Below, one piece after another: positions 35,463-47,970 of a stretch of DNA of 64,000 nt (position 1 is its first letter; every line of letters begins with the position of its first letter). A program made the translations under genes and the position numbers. The notes beneath the pieces were generated by a model. That model saw nothing but the letters and a program-made list of their open reading frames with translations. It had not been told where the DNA came from and searched no databases. Source of the stretch: Chitinophagales bacterium. GTDB lineage: Bacteria; Bacteroidota; Bacteroidia; Chitinophagales; UBA10324. The stretch is taken from assembly GCA_019694975.1 (NCBI GenBank), contig JAIBAY010000005.1:186001-250000 (forward strand). The letters run 5' to 3'.

Positions 35463-36551
35463 ATGATGAAGTCAATTAAGAAAACCAGTTTACAAGGCAC
35501 TTTCACAACACACAGCAAATCTTTCCTGCTCCTGTTCCTGCTTGCTTTCATGTTCAGTTGTAATAAAGCTGAGCAGCCGCTGCCGGCAGCTGGCAATTCA
35601 ATCACAGAGGAAAAAGATGGTGACCAGACTTCACTGATCGGAGATAATGGCGATGTGCAGACAGTCACCGAATCAGGCTTTGTGCTGATGGGCGGAGGAA
35701 CCGATGTGGATGAGGCATTTAAATGGATGATCGACCGCTGTGGCGGAGGCGACTTTGTGGTGATACGTGCCACAGGCACGAATGCATACGACAGCTACAT
35801 TTACGGGCTTGGCAATGTGAACTCCGTTGAGACCATCATCATCAATTCCGTAAACAAAGCCAACAAGGCCAATATTGAAAAGAAAATCAAAAATGCGGAG
35901 GCACTTTTTATTGCCGGCGGTGATCAGTGGGATTATGTGAAGTATTGGAAAAATACAAAGGTGGAAGATGCTATCAACTACCTGATCAATACGAAGCATG
36001 TGCCGGTTGGAGGAACGAGCGCAGGTTGTGCCATACTGGGCAATGTTTATTTCTCCGCGCAATACGGCACGGTTACTTCTTCACAGGCACTGAACAATCC
36101 CTATAATCAGAAAGTCGCACTGGGAAAAGATGACTTCATCAGTATTCCCATCCTATCACAAACTATCACTGATACTCATTTTGATAACCCTGATCGCCGC
36201 GGTAGAACAACAACATTTCTTGCGCGCATGATGCAGGACTGGAACATGAATGCCAAAGCCATTGCCTGCGAAGAGAAAACCGCTGTTTGTATTGATGCCA
36301 ATAATATAGCCACCGTGTTTGGTTATAACAATGGAACTGCCTTCTTCATGCAGCCCTCAGACCTTGGACCTGAAATATGTATTCCCAATACCAAATTAAC
36401 CTGGAACAGGAACAACCAGGCCGTTAAAGTTTATAAAATTGAAAATGAGGTGAATGGCAACGGATCATTCGATCTGAGCGACTGGTCAACCGCTTCCGGT
36501 GGTACCTGGACCTATTTCTGGGTGGATAATGGTGTGTTTCACGAAAACTGA
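35463..36551 (+). CDS. cyanophycinase-like S51 peptidase, lipoprotein
   Basis: 362 residues with a lipoprotein signal (LLLFLLAFMFSC, Cys33) and a class-I glutamine-amidotransferase-like fold. The S51 signature is present: FVLMGGGTDVDEAF at the start of the domain, LFIAGGDQWDYVKYW (about 149-162) and the nucleophile elbow GGTSAGCAI with Ser186. Cyanophycinases cut multi-L-arginyl-poly-L-aspartate to beta-Asp-Arg; secreted homologues in heterotrophs degrade it outside the cell. The lipoprotein signal places it in the periplasm or outer membrane. It follows susCD with its own promoter; whether cyanophycin or an isoaspartyl peptide is the substrate is not shown. Confidence 0.82.
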   Translation: MMKSIKKTSLQGTFTTHSKSFLLLFLLAFMFSCNKAEQPLPAAGNSITEEKDGDQTSLIGDNGDVQTVTESGFVLMGGGTDVDEAFKWMIDRCGGGDFVVIRATGTNAYDSYIYGLGNVNSVETIIINSVNKANKANIEKKIKNAEALFIAGGDQWDYVKYWKNTKVEDAINYLINTKHVPVGGTSAGCAILGNVYFSAQYGTVTSSQALNNPYNQKVALGKDDFISIPILSQTITDTHFDNPDRRGRTTTFLARMMQDWNMNAKAIACEEKTAVCIDANNIATVFGYNNGTAFFMQPSDLGPEICIPNTKLTWNRNNQAVKVYKIENEVNGNGSFDLSDWSTASGGTWTYFWVDNGVFHEN

Positions 36552-36614: not shown

Positions 36615-36712
36615 TATCGGCTATCGGCTATCTACTATTGAATATTGAATATTGAATATTGAATATTGAATATTGAATATTGAATATTGACCATTGACCA
36701 TTGACTATCGAA
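36615..36712. repeat. heptanucleotide tandem array (consensus TATTGAA)
   Basis: Fourteen contiguous 7-bp units: TATCGGC twice, TATCTAC, TATTGAA seven times, TATTGAC, CATTGAC twice, then TATCGAA. The central seven are identical. It is between the cyanophycinase stop and the next gene, ending 113 bp before the proposed ATG at 36826. Part of it lies in an open frame that begins at 36694, which is not considered coding. Confidence 0.9.
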
Positions 36713-36825
36713 CTCCTTTTGCCGCGACAGATCACCAAACTCAATTCACTGCCCCGGCTTTCACAGATTCGGGATTTTCATGCTACATTTACTTTCATTC
36801 GCTAACAGAAAGCATAAGCCATCCT

Positions 36826-39330
36826 ATGAAAAAAAGTTACACTGCGTTTCTTTCCCTCGTCTTCATCTCTTTTTTCCTTTTGCCATTCAAGCTGCAGGCA
36901 CAATCCAATCAATACCTCGATTTCGATGGTGTGGATGATTACGTGAGCGTGACGAATGGTTCAACTGCAATCGCCGGTTCTTCAGGTATCACTATGACAG
37001 GCTGGTTTTATGATAATGCCCTCGGCTATGGTCAGGGTATGATGGGCTTCCGTGCCACTTCCTGCGGATTTTATATGATTCAGCTGAATAATGGCTCCAT
37101 CGAATGCCGGTTTATCAATTCATCGAACACATTATACGAGTATGTTGCGCCCAACTTTACCACCGTTCCGCAGGTATGGCAGCATTTTGCCTGGGTTTAC
37201 AACGGCTCACAACTGACACTGTATGTGAATGGCAATCCTTCCGGAAGCAGCGCTGCATCAGGAAGCATTACCAACACCACTACACCCTTCGCTATCGGTA
37301 AAAGTATTCTGAGCGGTTTCAACTTCAATTATAACGGGCACATTGATGAAGTGTCAGTCTGGAACAAGGCGCTCTCACAGTCGGAGATACAGGATTTGAT
37401 GACTAATGAACTCACCGGCACTGAACCAAACCTGCAGATGTATTATAAATTCAACCAGGGAGTACCCGGCGCCGACAATACGGGCATCAGCGAGTTGCTC
37501 ACCGAAGTGAATTCGCCAACGTATGACGGCGACCTGCTGAACTTTGCACTCACCGGCGCCACATCAAATTTCAATGGCACACTCAATCCTTCTTTTCAGT
37601 CTATCTCCTTCCCTCCCATTGGCACCAAACTCACAACAGATCCTCCATTCGAACTGAATGCCACCGTTACGTCCGGCTTACCCATCAGTTACTCAGTTAT
37701 CTCAGGGCCGGCAACGATAAACGGAAATGTAGTGACACTGACAAGCACTCCGGGCACCGTTGTAGTGCAGGCCGATCAACCCGGCAATGGAACGTATGAT
37801 CCTGCAGCGCCGGTGACCAATGCATTCGCCGTCGTGGATCCTGCATTAAACGTTCCCGTTGTGGATGCACTCAACCCGGTTGCCGCTTCCAGCATCTATA
37901 TGCCGCAGCTGGCTGCCATGCAACTCGCTGCCATGGTAACGATACCTGATACACCACTCTTTTCGGTGCAGAGCGTGCAGTTTATTATCAACGGACAATC
38001 TTTTCCCGCTGCCAGTCATCCGGGCAACCACTTCACCGCCTGGTGGACACCGCCGGCCTATGGAAACTACACCATTAAAATTGAAGCCACCAGTAACTTT
38101 GGTGCCGTCTATACGCAAAACGTGGATGCCACGGTAGTACAAGGCGTTGCAGATATCAATAATGTTGCTGCCTTTAACGGGCTGTGGCTTGATTCAGGCA
38201 CACCTTCACTGATTGCGACCGGAAATCTTCCCTCCTATGTTGGCGCATTCGATACAATTATTGCAACGCTGTCCGTTACCTGTCCGACCGGTGGCTGTGA
38301 TCCATGGGACCGTGTTGCCAGCGTAGACGTCATGAGTCATGAAGGCGAATGGTTCGAGATAATCCGTTACATCACGCCCTATGGCGTTCCCTGTTCACAC
38401 AGCATTAATCTGGCTGATTATATGTCATTGCTGCAAGGCAAGGTTACGTTCAGGGCAAATTGCCTTACACTTACCAATGGATATCTGTATGAATTGAAAT
38501 TTGATTTCAAAGAAGGTGCTCCTCCTCATAACTATAGCAAAGTAACGCAGGTGTGGAAAGAAATCTATCCGTTTGGTGATTATGCAAATCTTCAACCTGT
38601 TCCTGATTTCAATTTTACCTATCCTCCGCTTACCGTCGCGTCCACGCTCAAACTCGTAAGCACCGGCCATGGCTGGGGCACATTGAATACCGGCAATGCA
38701 GCTGAATTCTATAATGCCACGCATGATATCCAGGTGAATGGCAGCAATGCTTTCTCGCAGCATAACTGGACAACCTGCAATCCTAATCCCGATGATTGCT
38801 CGCCGCAAAACGGTACCTGGACTTACAGCCGCGCCGGATGGTGCCCGGGTTCCATCGCACGTTATTTTGATTTTGATATGACGCCTTATATCGCAACATC
38901 CAATGTAAGTCTTGGCTATAAATTTCTCTCAACGTATGTGGATCAATGCCATCCGGATAACCCGAATTGCGTGACAGGCACCACCTGCTCCAATTGCGAT
39001 GATGGATTCAATCCCACACTGGATGTTAACTGTAACCTCATTACCTGGTTTGATGATCCTTCAGGGATAACAACTGCCGGTGAAATCAAAAATTTTGATT
39101 TCGCCTTGTATCCTAATCCGTCGAATGGCACATTCATTATCACCGGCGCTAATCATCCTGATAAAGATTTCAGGGTTTCTGTGTTCGATGTGATGGGTCA
39201 TTTGGTGAAAGAGCTGAACTGGAACGGGCAGAAGACAATACTGGATCTTAATGGTTTTGCCAAAGGAATTTACGTGGTGCAGGTGAGAGATGAAAATCAA
39301 ACACTGGTGAAGAAAATAGTGTTGCAATAG
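36826..39330 (+). CDS. secreted LamG-domain protein with PNGase F-like module and T9SS sorting domain
   Basis: The ATG at 36826 gives a signal peptide (MKKSYTAFLSLVFISFFLL to LQAQ) and 834 residues; earlier in-frame starts lie in the repeat-rich leader. Order: LamG/concanavalin-like domain (about 27-215), Ig-like beta domains (about 250-440), then a region resembling the two eight-stranded domains of peptide-N-glycosidase F: GGCDPWDRVASVDV in the first and GHGWGTLNTGNAAEF...GTWTYSRAGWCPG in the second (about 455-740). A T9SS tail (LYPNPSNGTFIITGA to GIYVVQVRDE) ends it. PNGase F removes N-glycans from glycoproteins by cleaving the Asn amide bond. With susCD nearby, glycoprotein use is plausible. 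Confidence 0.82.
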   Translation: MKKSYTAFLSLVFISFFLLPFKLQAQSNQYLDFDGVDDYVSVTNGSTAIAGSSGITMTGWFYDNALGYGQGMMGFRATSCGFYMIQLNNGSIECRFINSSNTLYEYVAPNFTTVPQVWQHFAWVYNGSQLTLYVNGNPSGSSAASGSITNTTTPFAIGKSILSGFNFNYNGHIDEVSVWNKALSQSEIQDLMTNELTGTEPNLQMYYKFNQGVPGADNTGISELLTEVNSPTYDGDLLNFALTGATSNFNGTLNPSFQSISFPPIGTKLTTDPPFELNATVTSGLPISYSVISGPATINGNVVTLTSTPGTVVVQADQPGNGTYDPAAPVTNAFAVVDPALNVPVVDALNPVAASSIYMPQLAAMQLAAMVTIPDTPLFSVQSVQFIINGQSFPAASHPGNHFTAWWTPPAYGNYTIKIEATSNFGAVYTQNVDATVVQGVADINNVAAFNGLWLDSGTPSLIATGNLPSYVGAFDTIIATLSVTCPTGGCDPWDRVASVDVMSHEGEWFEIIRYITPYGVPCSHSINLADYMSLLQGKVTFRANCLTLTNGYLYELKFDFKEGAPPHNYSKVTQVWKEIYPFGDYANLQPVPDFNFTYPPLTVASTLKLVSTGHGWGTLNTGNAAEFYNATHDIQVNGSNAFSQHNWTTCNPNPDDCSPQNGTWTYSRAGWCPGSIARYFDFDMTPYIATSNVSLGYKFLSTYVDQCHPDNPNCVTGTTCSNCDDGFNPTLDVNCNLITWFDDPSGITTAGEIKNFDFALYPNPSNGTFIITGANHPDKDFRVSVFDVMGHLVKELNWNGQKTILDLNGFAKGIYVVQVRDENQTLVKKIVLQ

Positions 39331-39610: not shown

Positions 39611-41710
39611 TTACTTCACATGATTGATTTTCATGGTAGCATTAATGATTCCATTGTAAGCAACCGTGGCAATGTATACTCCGGTAGGCAGGCCGGAAGG
39701 AACATGCCAGCTTACTTCATAACTGCCTGTTTTCTTTGGTTGATCTTCAACCGTAGCAATGAATTTACCGGTGAGGTCAATGATGCGTATTGTTACGCGG
39801 GCATCAGTGGATAAACGGTATTTGAAGTTGGTTACTTCCGTAAACGGATTCGGATAATTTTGCACGGCCACCATTTCAGGCGCTCCGATATCCAAACCTC
39901 CTGTCCTCATACCGGTCAGGTAAACACCGGCAGGCCCACTGCATTTTCCATAACCACTCCATGGTACCTGCACATATGGGAATGCTGTGCGAAATGCCGT
40001 ATCATTCTTCTCAACACCTGTAGTATAGGTGAGCACATCCAGCAAGTCAGTGGTAACAGGACTCTGCCCGGTGCCAATCGTATGATCATCGTACCAGAGT
40101 CCGATAGCCGCAAGTGCTACACCGCTTACTGCCTGTAACTCGATGCGTGTAACATCATCCTCCAGTCTCCTTCCATTCGGGAATCCGTCCATGTTGGGAA
40201 TAAACTGAAGGGCCGTAGATGTATTGTATGCCGGATCAGTTAATCCAAGTACTGCCGCCTGAATCAAACCTTCTGAACTGAACTGAGGATCATCGCGCGG
40301 TGTGGGAGGAACCGCCATGTTCAGCCGCAACATATCACCAAACGTTGGCAGGAAATTATTCACAAATGGCTTGCCGGGCGCCAGTGGATTGCCGTCAGGT
40401 TTGCCGACTGCCAGCTGATACGGTGCCAGGTTCGGAACGCCGGTGTAGAAGATCGGTAACAAATCAACTGATCTTGGCTGACCTTTGCGAAGCAGATAAC
40501 CGCCAAAAATATTCGGATCCAACGCTGTTCCCGTTGTGGCAGCATTGCCATACAGTACAAATAATCCGTCAGCACCATTGGTGAAGTCAACATTGCCTAA
40601 TACCGTTTGCGAAGCTTTCTGAATGCGCAAAGGAGCCAGTCCGGGCACGGCACCGCCAAACAGATCATCATCCATGTACAGGCCCAATTCGGGATTGCAG
40701 AAGTATGACTCAAAGTCTGCATCGTCATAAGGTGAAGCAGCATTCCATTTATCCTTGTCACCGATCGGAATCACGGCTTCATTGGTCAAAGGCATGCCTA
40801 AACGCGATACCTGAACAAATGGCGCTTGTCCTGATATGGATACCGTGGACCCGTTGGACTTGAGTGTAGTGATCTTCTTACGGCTGGCTGAAGCCCATAC
40901 GCCTATGACAAAATCACCGTCCAGTATATTCGCCGCCTGGCTCACATTTTTACCGTCCTTTTGTAGGGTGGAAATCGGAATCTTCATGGCAATAACATGC
41001 ACATTATGGCAGGCAACCGCATCAACCGGTGCATTCACGCCGGTACCGCCTGCACGGGTCTGCCCGAGATCAAACACACCGCCAAGATCAACAAAGAACG
41101 GATCATCAGCCGGCCCGCAATAGATGATTTCACCACCCGAACCCGTAGCTGTTGTCACCGCTGAAGTGTATAATTGTTCGTACGTGCTTCCTAATCCCAG
41201 TGTTGGATCTTCTATAGAACGCGGCCCGATATTCGGCGGCGGCACTGTTCCATTGGCAACAATATTTTTTGAAATTCCATTTTCCGTTTTATAACAGGAA
41301 TATGTTGTCTTCAGGTTCTGTGCTCCCAGGCGGATGTTGAAGAACGTGGAAGGATCTTCATTTACCTTGCGGAAACGAAACTGGTATCTGATGTCGTCGC
41401 CCGTAGTTGATGCATCATTCTTGATATGAATCTCGTAGGAGACATCAGTACCGAATGAATTGTAGTTTGGCCCTCCCTGCGGCAGCTCCAGCGGAACATA
41501 ACCGGCAATGATAGTGATGTAATTCGGATCATCAGGGCTCCTGAATGCATACAGGTCGGTATTGTCGGCCAATGGATCATTGGCAATCATCGGCGCTTCG
41601 CGGTGGCTCGATGCTTCAAGATCTGTATGCCTGGAGGAGAAATACAGTAAAGCCCCGATGACACCGGTCACAAGCACCGCTTTAGCAGCAATTTTTATGA
41701 TTGATTTCAT
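39611..41710 (-). CDS. DUF4331 protein with T9SS sorting domain
   Basis: 699 residues. A signal-like hydrophobic segment (residues 8-24) is followed by the DUF4331 start ASSHREAPMIANDPLADNTD and the domain over about 33-600, with conserved stretches such as EIHIKNDASTTGDDIRYQF, PVDAVACHNVHVIAMKIP and FLPTFGDMLRLNMAVP. The end is a T9SS type A tail (VQNYPNPFTEVTNFKYRL to GVYIATVAY). No enzymatic function is known for DUF4331 proteins, to my knowledge. It is the second gene of a tandem pair, 33 bp after its paralogue, in what looks like one transcript. Confidence 0.88.
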   Translation of the reverse strand: MKSIIKIAAKAVLVTGVIGALLYFSSRHTDLEASSHREAPMIANDPLADNTDLYAFRSPDDPNYITIIAGYVPLELPQGGPNYNSFGTDVSYEIHIKNDASTTGDDIRYQFRFRKVNEDPSTFFNIRLGAQNLKTTYSCYKTENGISKNIVANGTVPPPNIGPRSIEDPTLGLGSTYEQLYTSAVTTATGSGGEIIYCGPADDPFFVDLGGVFDLGQTRAGGTGVNAPVDAVACHNVHVIAMKIPISTLQKDGKNVSQAANILDGDFVIGVWASASRKKITTLKSNGSTVSISGQAPFVQVSRLGMPLTNEAVIPIGDKDKWNAASPYDDADFESYFCNPELGLYMDDDLFGGAVPGLAPLRIQKASQTVLGNVDFTNGADGLFVLYGNAATTGTALDPNIFGGYLLRKGQPRSVDLLPIFYTGVPNLAPYQLAVGKPDGNPLAPGKPFVNNFLPTFGDMLRLNMAVPPTPRDDPQFSSEGLIQAAVLGLTDPAYNTSTALQFIPNMDGFPNGRRLEDDVTRIELQAVSGVALAAIGLWYDDHTIGTGQSPVTTDLLDVLTYTTGVEKNDTAFRTAFPYVQVPWSGYGKCSGPAGVYLTGMRTGGLDIGAPEMVAVQNYPNPFTEVTNFKYRLSTDARVTIRIIDLTGKFIATVEDQPKKTGSYEVSWHVPSGLPTGVYIATVAYNGIINATMKINHVK

Positions 41711-41743
41711 GTCTGTTTATTTTGTGGTAGTTGACAAAAGTGA

Positions 41744-43516
41744 TTAGTACGTGTAGTTGTAATGATAGTCGTATCCGTTCCACGGACTGGCCACGAAGGG
41801 GAATGATGTTTTGAATGGTGCGTCATTGGATTCCACACCGGTGGAATAGGTCAGCACATCCAACAGGTCTTGCGTTACAGGACTTTGGCCTGTTCCGATA
41901 GTATGATCATCATACCAGAGACCGATCGCTGCGAGTGCTACACCACCTACCGCCTGCAGTTCGATACGGGTAACATCATCTTCCAGCCTTCTTCCGTTAG
42001 GAAAGCCATCCATGTTAGGAATGAATTGCAGATCTGTTGTTCCATTGTATGCAGGATCTGTTAAACCCAAAACCGCCGCCTGTATCAGGCCTTCAGAACT
42101 GAATTTGGGATCATCACGTGGTGTGACCGGCACAGCCATGTTCAGGCGAAGCATATCACCGAATGTCGGCAGGAAATTGTTGACGAATGGTTTGCCAGGT
42201 GCCAGCGGATTGCCATCCGGCTTGCCTACTGCCAGCTGATAAGGAGCAAGGTTCGGAACACCGGTATAGAAGATAGGCAGAATGTCAACAGAACGTGGCT
42301 CGTTATCGCGCAAGAGGTATCCGCCAAAAATCGCAGGATCCAATGCTGTTCCTGTTGTGGCGGCATTTCCATACAATACATAAAGGCCGTCATTTCCGTT
42401 TCCGAAATTCACGTTGCCCAATACAGTTTGAGATGCCTTTTGAATGCGCAGTGGCGAGAATGCCGGCACAGCAGTTCCAAACAAAGCATCGTCCATATAA
42501 AGCGCCAGCTCAGGATTGGTAAAATACTGTTCGAACTGGGCATCATTGTAAGGCGTCGTCCAGTTCCATAGATCTTTTTTACCGATTGGTATTACTGCTT
42601 CATTGGTCAAAGGCATGCCAAGGCGCGAAACCTGCACATATTTTCCAGTGCTTACGGCACCGCCTTCGCCATCGAGTGTCTTCACCTTCTTACGGCTTGC
42701 AGAAGCCCATACACCGATGACATAATCACCGTCGAGAATATTGGCGGCCTGCTGCACGCTCTTACCGTCTTTTTGCAGTTTGTTTATAGGAATGCTCATG
42801 GCAATCACATGCACATTGCGGCCTGCTATACCGTCACGTGCCGCATCAGCTCCTGTTCCTCCGTTGCGCGTTTGTCCGAGATCAAAAATACCGCCGAGGT
42901 CAACAAAAAAAGGATCATCAGCAGGACCGCAGTAGATCTGCGAACCATCGTCGGCCGTTGTGATGGCATCACTAATCAGCTGATCATAATTTGTTCCTAA
43001 ACCCACTACAGGATCTTCAATGGAGCGCGGACCGATGTTATTGGGCGGAACAGGTCCTTCAGCAATCTTTTGAAATGCACCACCTGCTGTGCTTTTCAGG
43101 CATTTATAAGTGGTCTTGATGTTTTGCTGCGCGAGCCGTATGTTAAAGAAGGTTGTTGGATCTTCATTAACCGCTTCGAACTTAAACCGGTAGGTGATAT
43201 CATCACCCGTTGTAGCTGCATTGTTTTTAATGTGGATCTCATAATTGATATCCTGGCCAAAAGTGTTGTAGTTAGGACCACCCATGGGCAGCTCCAACGG
43301 TATGTAGTTGGCCATGATGATGATCCGGTTAGGATCTTCCGGAGAACGGAAGCAATAAAGATCCGTGTTGTCTGCCAGCGGATCATCTGAGATGAGCGGT
43401 GCTTCGCGATGGCTGGACGCTATCAGCTGATCGCGGTGACTGCCGGTGTAAAGGAGACAGCCGGTTACCAGTAACATAAGGCCTGCCTTTACCAGGGTGT
43501 TGAGCTTTTGTTTCAT
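41744..43516 (-). CDS. DUF4331 protein, paralogue without sorting domain
   Basis: 590 residues with an N-terminal hydrophobic signal (LVKAGLMLLVTGCLLYTG) and the same DUF4331 domain (ASSHREAPLISDDPLADNTD onward). Long stretches are identical or nearly so to the following gene, for example the segments around PNLAPYQLAVGKPDG and FLPTFGDMLRLNMAVP. It ends at ASPWNGYDYHYNYTY, where its paralogue continues into a T9SS tail, so this copy should stay in the periplasm or be released by another route. It is first in the pair and divergent from the lipoprotein cluster starting at 43694. GCLLYTG contains a Cys, but the lipobox is not convincing. Confidence 0.87.
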   Translation of the reverse strand: MKQKLNTLVKAGLMLLVTGCLLYTGSHRDQLIASSHREAPLISDDPLADNTDLYCFRSPEDPNRIIIMANYIPLELPMGGPNYNTFGQDINYEIHIKNNAATTGDDITYRFKFEAVNEDPTTFFNIRLAQQNIKTTYKCLKSTAGGAFQKIAEGPVPPNNIGPRSIEDPVVGLGTNYDQLISDAITTADDGSQIYCGPADDPFFVDLGGIFDLGQTRNGGTGADAARDGIAGRNVHVIAMSIPINKLQKDGKSVQQAANILDGDYVIGVWASASRKKVKTLDGEGGAVSTGKYVQVSRLGMPLTNEAVIPIGKKDLWNWTTPYNDAQFEQYFTNPELALYMDDALFGTAVPAFSPLRIQKASQTVLGNVNFGNGNDGLYVLYGNAATTGTALDPAIFGGYLLRDNEPRSVDILPIFYTGVPNLAPYQLAVGKPDGNPLAPGKPFVNNFLPTFGDMLRLNMAVPVTPRDDPKFSSEGLIQAAVLGLTDPAYNGTTDLQFIPNMDGFPNGRRLEDDVTRIELQAVGGVALAAIGLWYDDHTIGTGQSPVTQDLLDVLTYSTGVESNDAPFKTSFPFVASPWNGYDYHYNYTY

Positions 43517-43693: not shown

Positions 43694-44596
43694 ATGCGAT
43701 TTCCCATCCTGCTGTTTTTTTCAATGCTCTTGTTGTCTGCCGCCTGGTTGAGCTGCACGAAAGAGTCAGCTGATGCACTTCACATCGATACAGTTATTAC
43801 CGGAAATAATCCTCCACCATACAATGGTGTTTCTGAAGCACAGATCAACGGCTATATCAACAGGATGTATATTGATCTGATGGGAAGGGCGCCAACACAG
43901 CAGGAAATCATCAGCAACCGTCTTTACCTGATCAATAATAAACTGAGTGATGCTGCAAAGGATACGGTTATCCAACTGCTCATGAATACAAAAGACTATT
44001 ACCGGGTGCTGTTCAGCATTGCCAGTGCAGATTTCATTAATGCAGCAGACAGTGCGGCGCTCGCGCAGGAAGTAAAGCTGATAACATTGATATATTACTA
44101 CGATTCACTGGCCGGCAACGTGGATAATTTCATTTATTACCAGTACGAGCTGAACAGATTCTACGTGCTGCAAAATATAACTGATGCATTCATGATTGGC
44201 GAAGCAACGCTGAATGAATTTTACGCGGCATTCCTCAACAATTATTTTTATGACATGACCAACATGGGCTCGGAAAATTTTGTAAAAGGGGCTTTCAGCG
44301 ATTTATACAGGCGATCACCAACTCAATCTGAACTGATCAATGGTACAACGATGGTAGATGGCAACCCGGCATTCCTTTTTCAGCAGGATGGTAACAGCAA
44401 AGGTGACTTCATTTACATCGCAACGGTTAACAATGAATTTTATGAAGGACTCGTAATCAAAGCATACAGTCAGCTGCTCTTGCGTGATGCTACCTCCCAG
44501 GAACTTTCGGAAGGTGCCGCTTTGCTGCAACTGAACAAGGATTATCCGGCGTTTCAAAAACAATTGATTAAAACGGCAGAGTATGCTGGATTTTAG
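43694..44596 (+). CDS. DUF1549-like lipoprotein, first gene of an unusual cluster
   Basis: 300 residues with a lipoprotein signal (LLLSAAWLSC, Cys21). The mature part has the phrase INRMYIDLMGRAPTQQEI, close to the INRLYLDLLGRxPT segment that opens planctomycete DUF1549 domains. It is repeated later in a weaker form (FVKGAFSDLYRRSPTQSELI and AYSQLLLRDATSQELSEG). It looks like several copies of a helical unit that ends in an R-(x)-P/A-T-x-x-E turn. No catalytic residues are evident. It is the first of five plus-strand genes with overlaps or short gaps, and divergent from the DUF4331 pair. Confidence 0.75.
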   Translation: MRFPILLFFSMLLLSAAWLSCTKESADALHIDTVITGNNPPPYNGVSEAQINGYINRMYIDLMGRAPTQQEIISNRLYLINNKLSDAAKDTVIQLLMNTKDYYRVLFSIASADFINAADSAALAQEVKLITLIYYYDSLAGNVDNFIYYQYELNRFYVLQNITDAFMIGEATLNEFYAAFLNNYFYDMTNMGSENFVKGAFSDLYRRSPTQSELINGTTMVDGNPAFLFQQDGNSKGDFIYIATVNNEFYEGLVIKAYSQLLLRDATSQELSEGAALLQLNKDYPAFQKQLIKTAEYAGF

Positions 44597-45128
44597 GCAA
44601 ATTCACATGGAGCACCGCATTCAATTCGCAGCATGGCTGTTATTGTTTTGCGGATGCATTTTATCCGGCAGTTGTAAAAAAGACATTTCCCAACAGGTGA
44701 TTTATGACAATGTCATTTATGAAATAACACCGGTAAGTGTTTACGCGAACAATGCGGAAAAGACAAAGCAAAAAAGCGCTGAACACTTTATCTCCATTCT
44801 TTATTCCAATCTGACAGACAAATCCATTCCGGCAGATGATCTGGGAAATCTTGCAGAACTCGCTCTTTCCGTTGGCGATAAAGAACTCATGAACCGTGTA
44901 TTGCTGGAGAATATGCTGGCTGATCCGCAGATCAGTATTCCTTCGAATGAAGAGATGCGCAGCAACATTACAGCCTTCGTGAACGGGACTTACCTGAAAT
45001 TCTACCTCCGGAATCCAACCGCTTATGAAGCCTATTACTTCCAGGACCTGATCAATCATGACAGCACCATCACGAGTGAAATGGTTTATGCTGCTTTTGC
45101 TCAGTCAAATGAATATTTATTCTATTAA
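44583..45128 (+). CDS. lipoprotein, short relative of the preceding gene
   Basis: 181 residues from the ATG at 44583 (overlap of 14 nt with the previous gene) or 173 from ATG 44607. The lipobox is ILSGSC. The mature part is mostly helical and contains TAFVNGTYLKFYLRNPTAYE, another copy of the helix plus R-N-P-T-x-x-E unit seen in the preceding lipoprotein, followed by YYFQDLI and a terminal FAQSNEYLFY. It is best read as a second helical lipoprotein of the same kind. No function is known. The overlap shows translational coupling. Confidence 0.72.
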   Translation: MLDFRQIHMEHRIQFAAWLLLFCGCILSGSCKKDISQQVIYDNVIYEITPVSVYANNAEKTKQKSAEHFISILYSNLTDKSIPADDLGNLAELALSVGDKELMNRVLLENMLADPQISIPSNEEMRSNITAFVNGTYLKFYLRNPTAYEAYYFQDLINHDSTITSEMVYAAFAQSNEYLFY

Positions 45129-45146
45129 TACGGTTCAAACTGATCT

Positions 45147-46481
45147 ATGAAAAGAAGAGCATTTATCAGGAAAGCAGGTTTGGCAACAGCAGGCATGTTT
45201 GCAGCACCTTACCTGCTGCCGGAAGGCCGTTTATTCGCCGGCACCGGTGACCGTATTGTGAATCATGTAGTGGTGGTTTTATTTGCCGGCGGTGTCAGGC
45301 AACAGGAATCAATTGATCAGGCCTATCTGTCTGCACAGGGCTTATCTACTACTGGTAACCTGTTACGTAACATGCTCGTTGGCAATGAACCTTCTTCCAA
45401 CCTCGTTTATATGCCATGGCAACCGGTGCTTACCACACCACTCGCCAAGCAAGGCACCTTATTTAAAGAAATGCGTTATGCATCGGGGCCGACCGGCCAT
45501 TTCAACGGGCATACGGCAGCCATCACCGGCAATTATACCCAATCATCCCTTGACCTTAATCAAAATCCGGATTTTCCGACCGTGTTTGAGTATTACCGCA
45601 AGCATACCGATCCGGCGAGAAGCGCTGTCAATTGCTGGTGGATGAGTGAAGGGCTTGGCCCATATCCTGCTTTAAACTACAGCCGCAACGGAATGTATGG
45701 CGCAATGTATGGTGCAAATTATATCAGACCGGCAACCACCTTCGGCAGTTATGGTCTCGACTATTTAAATGATGCCATCACCTTTCAGCCGGATGATGTC
45801 ACGAAGATCGAATCCATAAAAAGTTTCCTGGATAAAAACTTTGACCGAACCGCGGCTGATTATCCCGGCATCATTAATACGGCAGATGACCGCGAAAAAA
45901 TCAAAGCCTTCATTTATGATACGCTGAACAAAACATCTGCCGGTCAAATTGAATGGCCCCTGCCACCCGGCATCAGTACCGCTGAATTAACCGGTGATCT
46001 GACTAACATCGCTTACGCATGGCAGGTACTGCAAAAATTTATGCCTGAACTGCTTGTCATCAACAGTTTCGATCTTGATGCCTGTCATTTCAATTTTACC
46101 AATTACCTCAGCTATATGCATAAAGCAGATTACGGTGTTGGCTGGCTTTGGAATAAAATTCAACAGGATCCTGTATTGAAGAATGATACCATCATGATCT
46201 GCATGCCGGATCATGGCCGAAATGAATTACCGAACAGTGTGTATGATGTAAATGGTTTGCGGGCTTTCGATCATACCAGTGATAACAATTCGCGAAGACT
46301 CTTCGGACTCATTGTGGGGCCTGCAGGTAAAGTGAAGCAGGACCAGGTGGTAGGCAATGATGCTGATCCTGTGGGCGAAACAATTGACCTCGTGCCAACC
46401 ATTGCCCGTATTCTCGGCTTTCATGAATACATTCCTGCAGGATTGTTGCCCGGAAGAATTTTAGAAGAGGCATTTGTATAA
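45147..46481 (+). CDS. Tat-type exported DUF1501-like protein (alkaline-phosphatase clan)
   Basis: 444 residues beginning MKRRAFIRKAGLATAGMFAA, a twin-arginine signal (RRAFI plus hydrophobic stretch). The mature protein has alkaline-phosphatase/sulfatase-fold features: HVVVVLFAGGVRQQESID where such proteins bind the first metal, GHFNGHTAAITGNYTQ, FDLDACHFNF, and MPDHGRNELPNS with a metal-binding Asp-His. A late DPVGETIDLVPTIARILGF stretch is typical of DUF1501 and sulfatase-like proteins. Usual catalytic residues could not be assigned confidently. It follows the DUF1549-like lipoproteins by 18 bp, the same pairing as in Planctomycetes. Confidence 0.75.
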   Translation: MKRRAFIRKAGLATAGMFAAPYLLPEGRLFAGTGDRIVNHVVVVLFAGGVRQQESIDQAYLSAQGLSTTGNLLRNMLVGNEPSSNLVYMPWQPVLTTPLAKQGTLFKEMRYASGPTGHFNGHTAAITGNYTQSSLDLNQNPDFPTVFEYYRKHTDPARSAVNCWWMSEGLGPYPALNYSRNGMYGAMYGANYIRPATTFGSYGLDYLNDAITFQPDDVTKIESIKSFLDKNFDRTAADYPGIINTADDREKIKAFIYDTLNKTSAGQIEWPLPPGISTAELTGDLTNIAYAWQVLQKFMPELLVINSFDLDACHFNFTNYLSYMHKADYGVGWLWNKIQQDPVLKNDTIMICMPDHGRNELPNSVYDVNGLRAFDHTSDNNSRRLFGLIVGPAGKVKQDQVVGNDADPVGETIDLVPTIARILGFHEYIPAGLLPGRILEEAFV

Positions 46482-46513
46482 ACAGCTAAAGCGAACAGGT
46501 TATCATCATCATC

Positions 46514-47503
46514 ATGCACCAAAGCCTTATTGAATCAAACAATTCAGCCCGCATCACGCTGAACAGGCGGTTTCTTTTGCCGTGTATGTTGGCTTGCCTG
46601 TTTTTTTCCTGCAACCGGAATCCCATTGCAGAACTGCCGGAACTTCCTTTCAATCCATTCGACACCATCACCTACGATCAGGACTTAGTACCCGTGGTGC
46701 CACCCGACTCATCTACATTCGCAGGTATTCATCAGTATATTCTTGCGGTGAAATGCGCAGTCAGCGGCTGTCATGACGGAACTTTTGAACCGGACTACCG
46801 CACCGTGCAAAGCGCTTACAATACGCTTGTGCTTGCGGCGGTGCTGAAAAACACTGCGGATTCCTTTTTCACGTACAGGGTGGTACCCAACGATACATCA
46901 GCTTCCTGGTTATGGTACCGTTTAACCACCAATGATGCCACATTAGGCAAGATGCCGCTCTATGATACTCTATATCCAACTCAAAGGGAGAAGATCAGCC
47001 AATGGATCATGCAAGGTGCGCCTGATCTCTTCGGCAATTCTCCATCCATTCCCAATTATCAGCCGGCATTGTACGGGCTCGTTGCTTACCTGCCCGATCA
47101 GGGTGATTACAGGGTGGATACTTTGCGCGGTGGTATTACCACCAACCCATTTATGGTAACACAAAATACAAACGTGAAAATCTGGATTGGCATTTACGAT
47201 GATCTTACGCTGCCCTTCCAGTTTACTTTCAATATAGTTAAATTCTCAACCGATCCGTTTGACTGGAGTGAGGCGCTTGAAGTGCCATTACAATTGCAGT
47301 TTGCTCCGCATATTGAGCATCTGTTTGGCCAGGACCTTCCATTCTATCTCTCCTGTGTTGTGAATACCGCTTCATTTGAACATAATGACATCGTTTACAT
47401 GCGAGCCTATGTTCAGGATCAGGACCACAGCTCGCCTACTGAAATTCCGGAAAACGGATCCCAGCTATACATTCAAACTTATTGTTCCTTTATCGTGCAA
47501 TGA
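46514..47503 (+). CDS. cytochrome c-like (PSCyt1-like) lipoprotein
   Basis: 329 residues. Lipoprotein signal around LPCMLACLFFSC. A c-type heme motif of CX4CH form (CAVSGCHDGTF, about residues 82-92) follows IHQYILAVK, and later GKMPLYDTLYPTQREKISQW supplies the probable axial Met (KMP) and the WI-x-x-GA helix end typical of planctomycete PSCyt1 domains. The second half (about 170-329) is a beta-rich domain without recognised family. Likely an outer-membrane or periplasmic redox lipoprotein; the CX4CH spacing is unusual, and heme attachment is an inference. 32 bp after the DUF1501-like gene. Confidence 0.72.
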   Translation: MHQSLIESNNSARITLNRRFLLPCMLACLFFSCNRNPIAELPELPFNPFDTITYDQDLVPVVPPDSSTFAGIHQYILAVKCAVSGCHDGTFEPDYRTVQSAYNTLVLAAVLKNTADSFFTYRVVPNDTSASWLWYRLTTNDATLGKMPLYDTLYPTQREKISQWIMQGAPDLFGNSPSIPNYQPALYGLVAYLPDQGDYRVDTLRGGITTNPFMVTQNTNVKIWIGIYDDLTLPFQFTFNIVKFSTDPFDWSEALEVPLQLQFAPHIEHLFGQDLPFYLSCVVNTASFEHNDIVYMRAYVQDQDHSSPTEIPENGSQLYIQTYCSFIVQ

Positions 47504-47970
47504 AAAATTCCGGCCAAAGTATTTTGAAGCAATTATTACTGCTCGCGATGCTGTGCTTTCTTCATTCGTGCAAGAAGGACGATTCTGCAAATCCTCCGGT
47601 AAGCATCGTTCCGGAAATCGCGCTATTCTCCGTTGCACCGTCTGTTGTGCACAATCTGCAGGATTCACTTTTATTTGTCGTAAGTTACATTGATGGAGAT
47701 GGCGACCTTGGCGACTATGCCGCAGACTCCTTATCGCTATGGATAACAGATAACCGGTTTCCGCTGACGGAAAAATTTCACATTATTCCACTTGCTCCGC
47801 AAGGTTCCTCCCTTGTAATTGCCGGTGAATTAAAGGTGATACTGGAACATATTATCCTGAAAGATCAGACGGCAACTTCAGAAGAGGCAACTTTCACGGT
47901 GCAGCTGAAAGACAGGGCCGGGCATTGGAGTAACAGTGTGACATCACCGGTCATTATGATCGTGCAATAG
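47500..47970 (+). CDS. small beta-sandwich lipoprotein
   Basis: 156 residues starting at ATG 47500, which overlaps the stop of the preceding gene (ATGA). Signal and lipobox: LLLLAMLCFLHSC. The mature part begins KKDDSANPP and continues with alternating beta-strand stretches (LLFVVSYIDGDGDLGDYAAD, EATFTVQLKDRAGHWSNSV), suggesting an Ig-like fold with a calcium-type DGDGD loop. It is the last gene of the five-gene cluster and ends 20 bp before the convergent SDR gene. No function known. Confidence 0.75.
   Translation: MKNSGQSILKQLLLLAMLCFLHSCKKDDSANPPVSIVPEIALFSVAPSVVHNLQDSLLFVVSYIDGDGDLGDYAADSLSLWITDNRFPLTEKFHIIPLAPQGSSLVIAGELKVILEHIILKDQTATSEEATFTVQLKDRAGHWSNSVTSPVIMIVQ

Follow-up and report, generated by a model that had tools for sequence, protein, structure and literature searches.

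The question raised by this locus is whether five short adjacent genes of a Chitinophagales bacterium belong to a single cell-envelope system, and whether that system is kin to the PSCyt1/DUF1549/DUF1501 proteins of Planctomycetes. Within the window (the whole 64,000-nucleotide stretch analysed), the five plus-strand open reading frames described in the initial annotation at 43694-47970 were all found in place, with short gaps or overlaps between them. They encode, in order, A (43694..44596), a helical lipoprotein of 300 aa that contains three units of DUF4214/phycobilisome-linker-like type; B (44583..45128), a helical lipoprotein with a DUF4214 domain; C (45147..46481), a 444-aa Tat-exported, DUF1501-like protein with a predicted alkaline-phosphatase fold; D (46514..47503), a 329-aa lipoprotein with a predicted mono-haem cytochrome c domain and a C-terminal Ig-like sandwich; and E (47500..47970), a small lipoprotein, probably beta-rich and Ig-like. 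B measures 181 aa, or 173 aa when read from 44607; the latter start may be the correct one, and B thus either overlaps A or begins just after it. For E, a longer open reading frame opens at TTG 47482, the start initially chosen, which is likely too early; the ATG at 47500, which forms an ATGA overlap with the stop codon of D, is more likely.

The proposed export signals were recovered, with lipobox-type signals in A, B, D, and E, and a Tat-type RR signal in C (39 out of 40 relatives). Features of surface-export signals, a lysine in position +3 and an acidic residue in +4, were common in the cassette lipoproteins; the complete C-X-K-(D/E)2 surface-export motif was present in only 5-7 members per family. 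Moreover, the same genome encodes TatC and cytochrome-c assembly genes.

To determine how widely the module is conserved, we surveyed related genomes. C was found in 72 of the 247 genomes of the same class, in 71 of the 149 genomes of the same order (E<=1e-10; about one fifth to one quarter of these being weak partial matches), and in 3 out of 296 well-completed genomes across the phylum, one of these three matches being weak and partial. Judging from genome quality, C appears to be mostly confined to uncultured lineages. A protein search of the genome contigs returned only 2 relatives. Full-length D was present in 67 genomes of the class, 66 of which also carried C, a co-occurrence with a hypergeometric P of ~1e-51 when phylogeny is ignored. 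All five genes were called in the order A-B-C-D-E at 36 of the 42 loci surveyed, as the clustering postulated at the outset would predict, with median intergenic gaps of -4, 5, 3, and -4 bases; two of the six exceptions (L044 and L048) were artefacts of open reading frame calling, matches to C and D being present there. The trees of the five genes were congruent, their pairwise distances correlating at 0.76-0.93, and one clade, here called type 2, was monophyletic in all five. The five genes are inherited as one unit. No paper describing this five-gene cassette was found in the literature searched, and the module is real, conserved, and apparently undescribed.

Type 2 cassettes were followed by a gene encoding a protein of ~1170 aa which, in the three examples scanned, carried a CHU_C type IX secretion signal together with CUB and/or PKD domains. 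The addition of this type IX-secreted protein suggests a use at the cell surface. At the equivalent locus of two genomes (G002 and G137), a shortened C was all that remained of the five genes, and in two others (G179 and G118) C and D were located on different contigs; C can therefore exist without the other genes. At L121 (7627-8721) and L122 (7547-8557), the C-family protein was shortened and had none of A, B, D, or E as neighbours; it adjoined genes for an M20 peptidase and a LEA-type protein, the rest of the cassette having apparently been lost. Genes of the same kinds as the M20 peptidase and small LEA-type lipoprotein genes found beside shortened C in G002 and G137 also flank a complete cassette in G150. 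Overall, M20 peptidase, LEA_2, Wzi, and glycosyltransferase neighbours recurred in few lineages or were seen in one only, and the co-occurrence of heme-copper oxidases was uninformative, as these were present in 238 of the 247 genomes.

In the window itself, a tandem pair of DUF4331 genes, divergent from the cassette, lies upstream of A (39611..43516, minus strand). This pair, noted initially as adjoining the cassette, is real (PF14224, 416 bits each) but is not part of the system and is not a conserved neighbour, since, of the loci compared, only that of the window had it next to the cassette. The DUF4331 protein at 39611-41710 bears a type IX secretion tail, as does a LamG/PNGase F-C-terminal protein (36694-39330) next to a cyanophycinase-like/peptidase S51 lipoprotein (35463-36551) further upstream. 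Sulfatase-family matches number 18 in the genome, several of them being 730-760 aa long, and most of those checked carry the Cys of formylglycine sulfatases; these matches suggest the use of sulfated polymers.

Among the lipoproteins, A and B were expected to share a repeated helical motif. By inspection, three units of the YxxLxGRxPTxxE type were recognized in A (LMGRAPTQQE, LYRRSPTQSE, and LLLRDATSQE), and one or two copies in B. B passed the Pfam cut-off for DUF4214 (PF13946; 26.9 bits versus 23.2), the sole above-cut-off match among the five cassette proteins of the window. The A protein of the window did not match DUF4214, a match found for 31 of its 38 relatives at E<=0.1 (best 8.5e-9). 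Other Pfam families matched by the A relatives were the phycobilisome linker (14 of the 38), DUF1553 (10), DUF1549, also named PSCyt2 (5), and DUF1800 (one, E 0.04). The hhalign score between A and B was 93%. Moreover, A matched phycobilisome (PBS) linker chains in the PDB with an E of 4.2e-8. A and B thus resemble phycobilisome linker/DUF4214 repeats, but differ from them in being exported lipoproteins in a non-photosynthetic context.

The haem-like site reported initially in D, CAVSGCH (C-x4-CH) with a downstream Met-Pro (KMP), was invariant in all 38 full-length relatives, and the extended motif C-x4-CHDGxFEPDFR plus Met-Pro was invariant or nearly so. C-x4-CH has been included among haem motifs in other published work (PMC5566968). 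On the basis of this motif and of the maturation genes, D is likely a c-type cytochrome with a putative haem attachment site. Its predicted model (pLDDT 88) ends in an Ig-like sandwich at about residues 181-329, for which the fold search gave a best Z of 8.8 with many unrelated folds tied and no functional lead. Two short open reading frames of the same genome (245 and 275 aa) showed weak matches to the D cytochrome domain (C2:101887-102057 and C4:216680-216847). For E, 38 syntenic relatives were identified, with no Pfam family (one insignificant match) and no convincing PDB match; its description as a small lipoprotein holds through its lipobox, and its Ig-like type is probable, by inspection only.

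The predicted model of C (pLDDT 85) confirmed its placement in the alkaline-phosphatase clan, with a VIA-align Z of 27.8 to PafA over 307 residues (rmsd 3.8) and Z values of 24-28 across PafA, NPP, and sulfatases. In Pfam, its relatives matched Phosphodiest (18 of 40), Sulfatase (12 of 40), and DUF1501 (2 of 40, best E 0.0032). Members of this superfamily have their nucleophile ten residues ahead of the glycine of a conserved (T/S)G (Thr in NPP, Cys in sulfatases). The controls were consistent with this rule: own-genome sulfatases whose motif was readable had Cys at this position, and two phosphodiesterases (L142 and L124) had Thr. In C, this position was His in 40 out of 40 members (His118 in the window), and the beta-1 metal Asp, present in L124, was replaced by Ala or Gly in all 40 (Ala47 in the window). 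C therefore shares the fold of catalytic members of the superfamily (PafA, NPP, sulfatases) but differs from them in its nucleophile and in one metal ligand, having neither a Thr/Ser/Cys nucleophile nor the beta-1 metal Asp. Residues D311, H314, R358, D375, H376, and D379 were invariant, and H356 was replaced by Cys in six type 2 members. From its sequence, C is predicted to have kept one metal half-site while the canonical catalytic half was rebuilt. It is probably not an ordinary hydrolase, because His replaces the nucleophile and one metal-binding Asp has been lost.

With DUF1501 proteins, C shares a His ten residues before (T/S)G, DxxH, [DE]xGR, and DH. The nucleophile-position His was observed in 21 of 22 PSD1-linked DUF1501 proteins (INHDPA...TG; the 22nd open reading frame was mis-called) and, as RSHF, in five out of eight members of a second DUF1501 group. 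To evaluate the link to the planctomycete families, we compared profiles by hhalign, using profiles that we made from the DUF1501 and PSCyt1-DUF1549-DUF1553 proteins of Bacteroidota. C matched DUF1501 (96.7%, E 3.4e-10, 124 columns), D matched PSCyt1 (97.4%, E 1.4e-11, 87 columns, part of which may be generic class I similarity), and A matched DUF1549 (80.7%, E 1.3e-5) over the first ~55 columns only. Non-corresponding family pairs scored about 1% or less, except for weak similarity of A and B to DUF1553 (PSD1) at the C-terminal GRxP-type unit (13-18%, E ~1e-3). Scores of 58-90% were also obtained within the cassette for A-D, A-E, B-D, and D-E; these probably come from common lipoprotein signal regions.

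The Pfam profiles of PSCyt1, DUF1549, and DUF1501 gave none of the five cassette proteins of the window above cut-off. A reached 14.5 bits against 29.8 for DUF1549 (PF07583), PSCyt1 (PF07635) was matched by one of the 38 D relatives (E 0.032) with no Pfam match for D of the window, and DUF1501 (PF07394) was matched neither by C of the window nor across its genome. Thus, the family assignment made initially stands as distant profile kinship of D with PSCyt1, of C with DUF1501, and of A with the N-terminal DUF1549 unit, and does not extend to membership at the Pfam cut-offs. Nor is the cassette simply the planctomycete cluster in its "Bacteroidota version". Indeed, of 198 Bacteroidota genomes, 22 encoded canonical DUF1549 proteins, mostly of 730-1150 aa, some of these genomes belonging to the same order; a DUF1501 gene commonly lay within a few kilobases. 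As these canonical fused PSCyt1-DUF1549-DUF1553 and DUF1501 pairs occur in Bacteroidota, the cassette is a separate, split relative. The two resemble each other in having, at each locus, a cytochrome domain, a GRxPTxxE helical unit, and a Tat-exported DUF1501-type partner of alkaline-phosphatase fold, in addition to the profile similarity to D, A, and C. They differ in that the cassette distributes these parts among four lipoproteins and a single Tat protein, short separate genes being found throughout and a fused polypeptide in no cassette. Moreover, all 38 full-length D relatives have C-x4-CH in place of the C-x2-CH of PSCyt1, and A, whose single Cys in the window is that of the lipobox, has neither the full ~209-residue DUF1549 domain nor its C-x2-CHDHK haem site. 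DUF1501-DUF1800 pairs, which adjoin bacterial chitin synthases (PMC5122149), also carry a Tat-exported DUF1501 protein, with RSHF and EFGR where C has GHF and EHGR, but their partner is DUF1800 and no cytochrome or lipoprotein genes have been described with them.

Several explanations of the cassette can be weighed against these data. That five unrelated genes are adjacent by chance has practically no probability and is refuted by the conserved order, the gene overlaps, and the congruent trees, with nothing in its favour beyond the absence of a known function. C might instead be an ordinary metal-dependent hydrolase, phosphodiesterase- or sulfatase-like, acting on a surface polymer, with D and the lipoproteins as accessories and no redox chemistry; its fold and the Phosphodiest and Sulfatase matches of its relatives point this way, but the uniform replacement of the nucleophile and of the beta-1 Asp, together with the invariant haem site of the co-encoded D, makes this unlikely. 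It is also rather unlikely, if slightly less so, that C is a dead pseudoenzyme in a surface structure or an adhesion/sensing complex, in which the haem of D would be a ligand sensor or structural. Such a role would agree with the loss of canonical catalytic residues, the CHU_C/CUB/PKD surface protein that type 2 cassettes precede, and the likeness of A and B to scaffold linkers; however, several polar residues around the site are invariant in 40 diverse relatives and partly common to DUF1501, which suggests a working site.

The reading that we prefer, tentatively and at somewhat less than even chance, is that the five genes form a co-inherited operon for a cell-envelope complex, with A and B as scaffold, C as metal-dependent catalytic or binding component, D as electron carrier, and E as accessory. 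Weighing against it are the genomes in which C occurs without the other genes or on another contig than D, the ambiguous surface-export signals, and heme-copper oxidases too widespread to discriminate. This proposal builds on order, co-occurrence, congruent trees, export signals, and folds, all reported above as results, and it is the roles of A to E that we infer. In such a complex, A and B would anchor and scaffold the assembly at a membrane, and C, through its rewired metal site, would bind or modify an extracytoplasmic substrate. As C is Tat-exported, it would probably be folded with its cofactor before export. Through its c-type haem, D would exchange single electrons with C or with the substrate of C, and E would serve as an Ig-like accessory. 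A bolder extension, which we regard as quite doubtful, is to view both C and all of the DUF1501 superfamily as metalloenzymes that use the alkaline-phosphatase fold for redox or other non-hydrolytic chemistry. The His at the nucleophile position would then form, with D311, H314, and H376, a metal site of three His and one Asp, and the co-encoded cytochrome would serve this site.

Planctomycetes and Verrucomicrobia are rich in PSCyt and DUF1501 genes, which have no function known in the literature; for PSCyt genes, a role in carbohydrate metabolism has been proposed from gene context (PMC5615132). The five-gene, separately encoded form described here is far easier to express or delete than fused proteins of ~1000 residues, and the conserved replacement of the nucleophile by His offers a specific, testable idea on the chemistry of the DUF1501 family. 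If the non-hydrolytic metalloenzyme reading were true, it would provide the first function for DUF1501/PSCyt systems.
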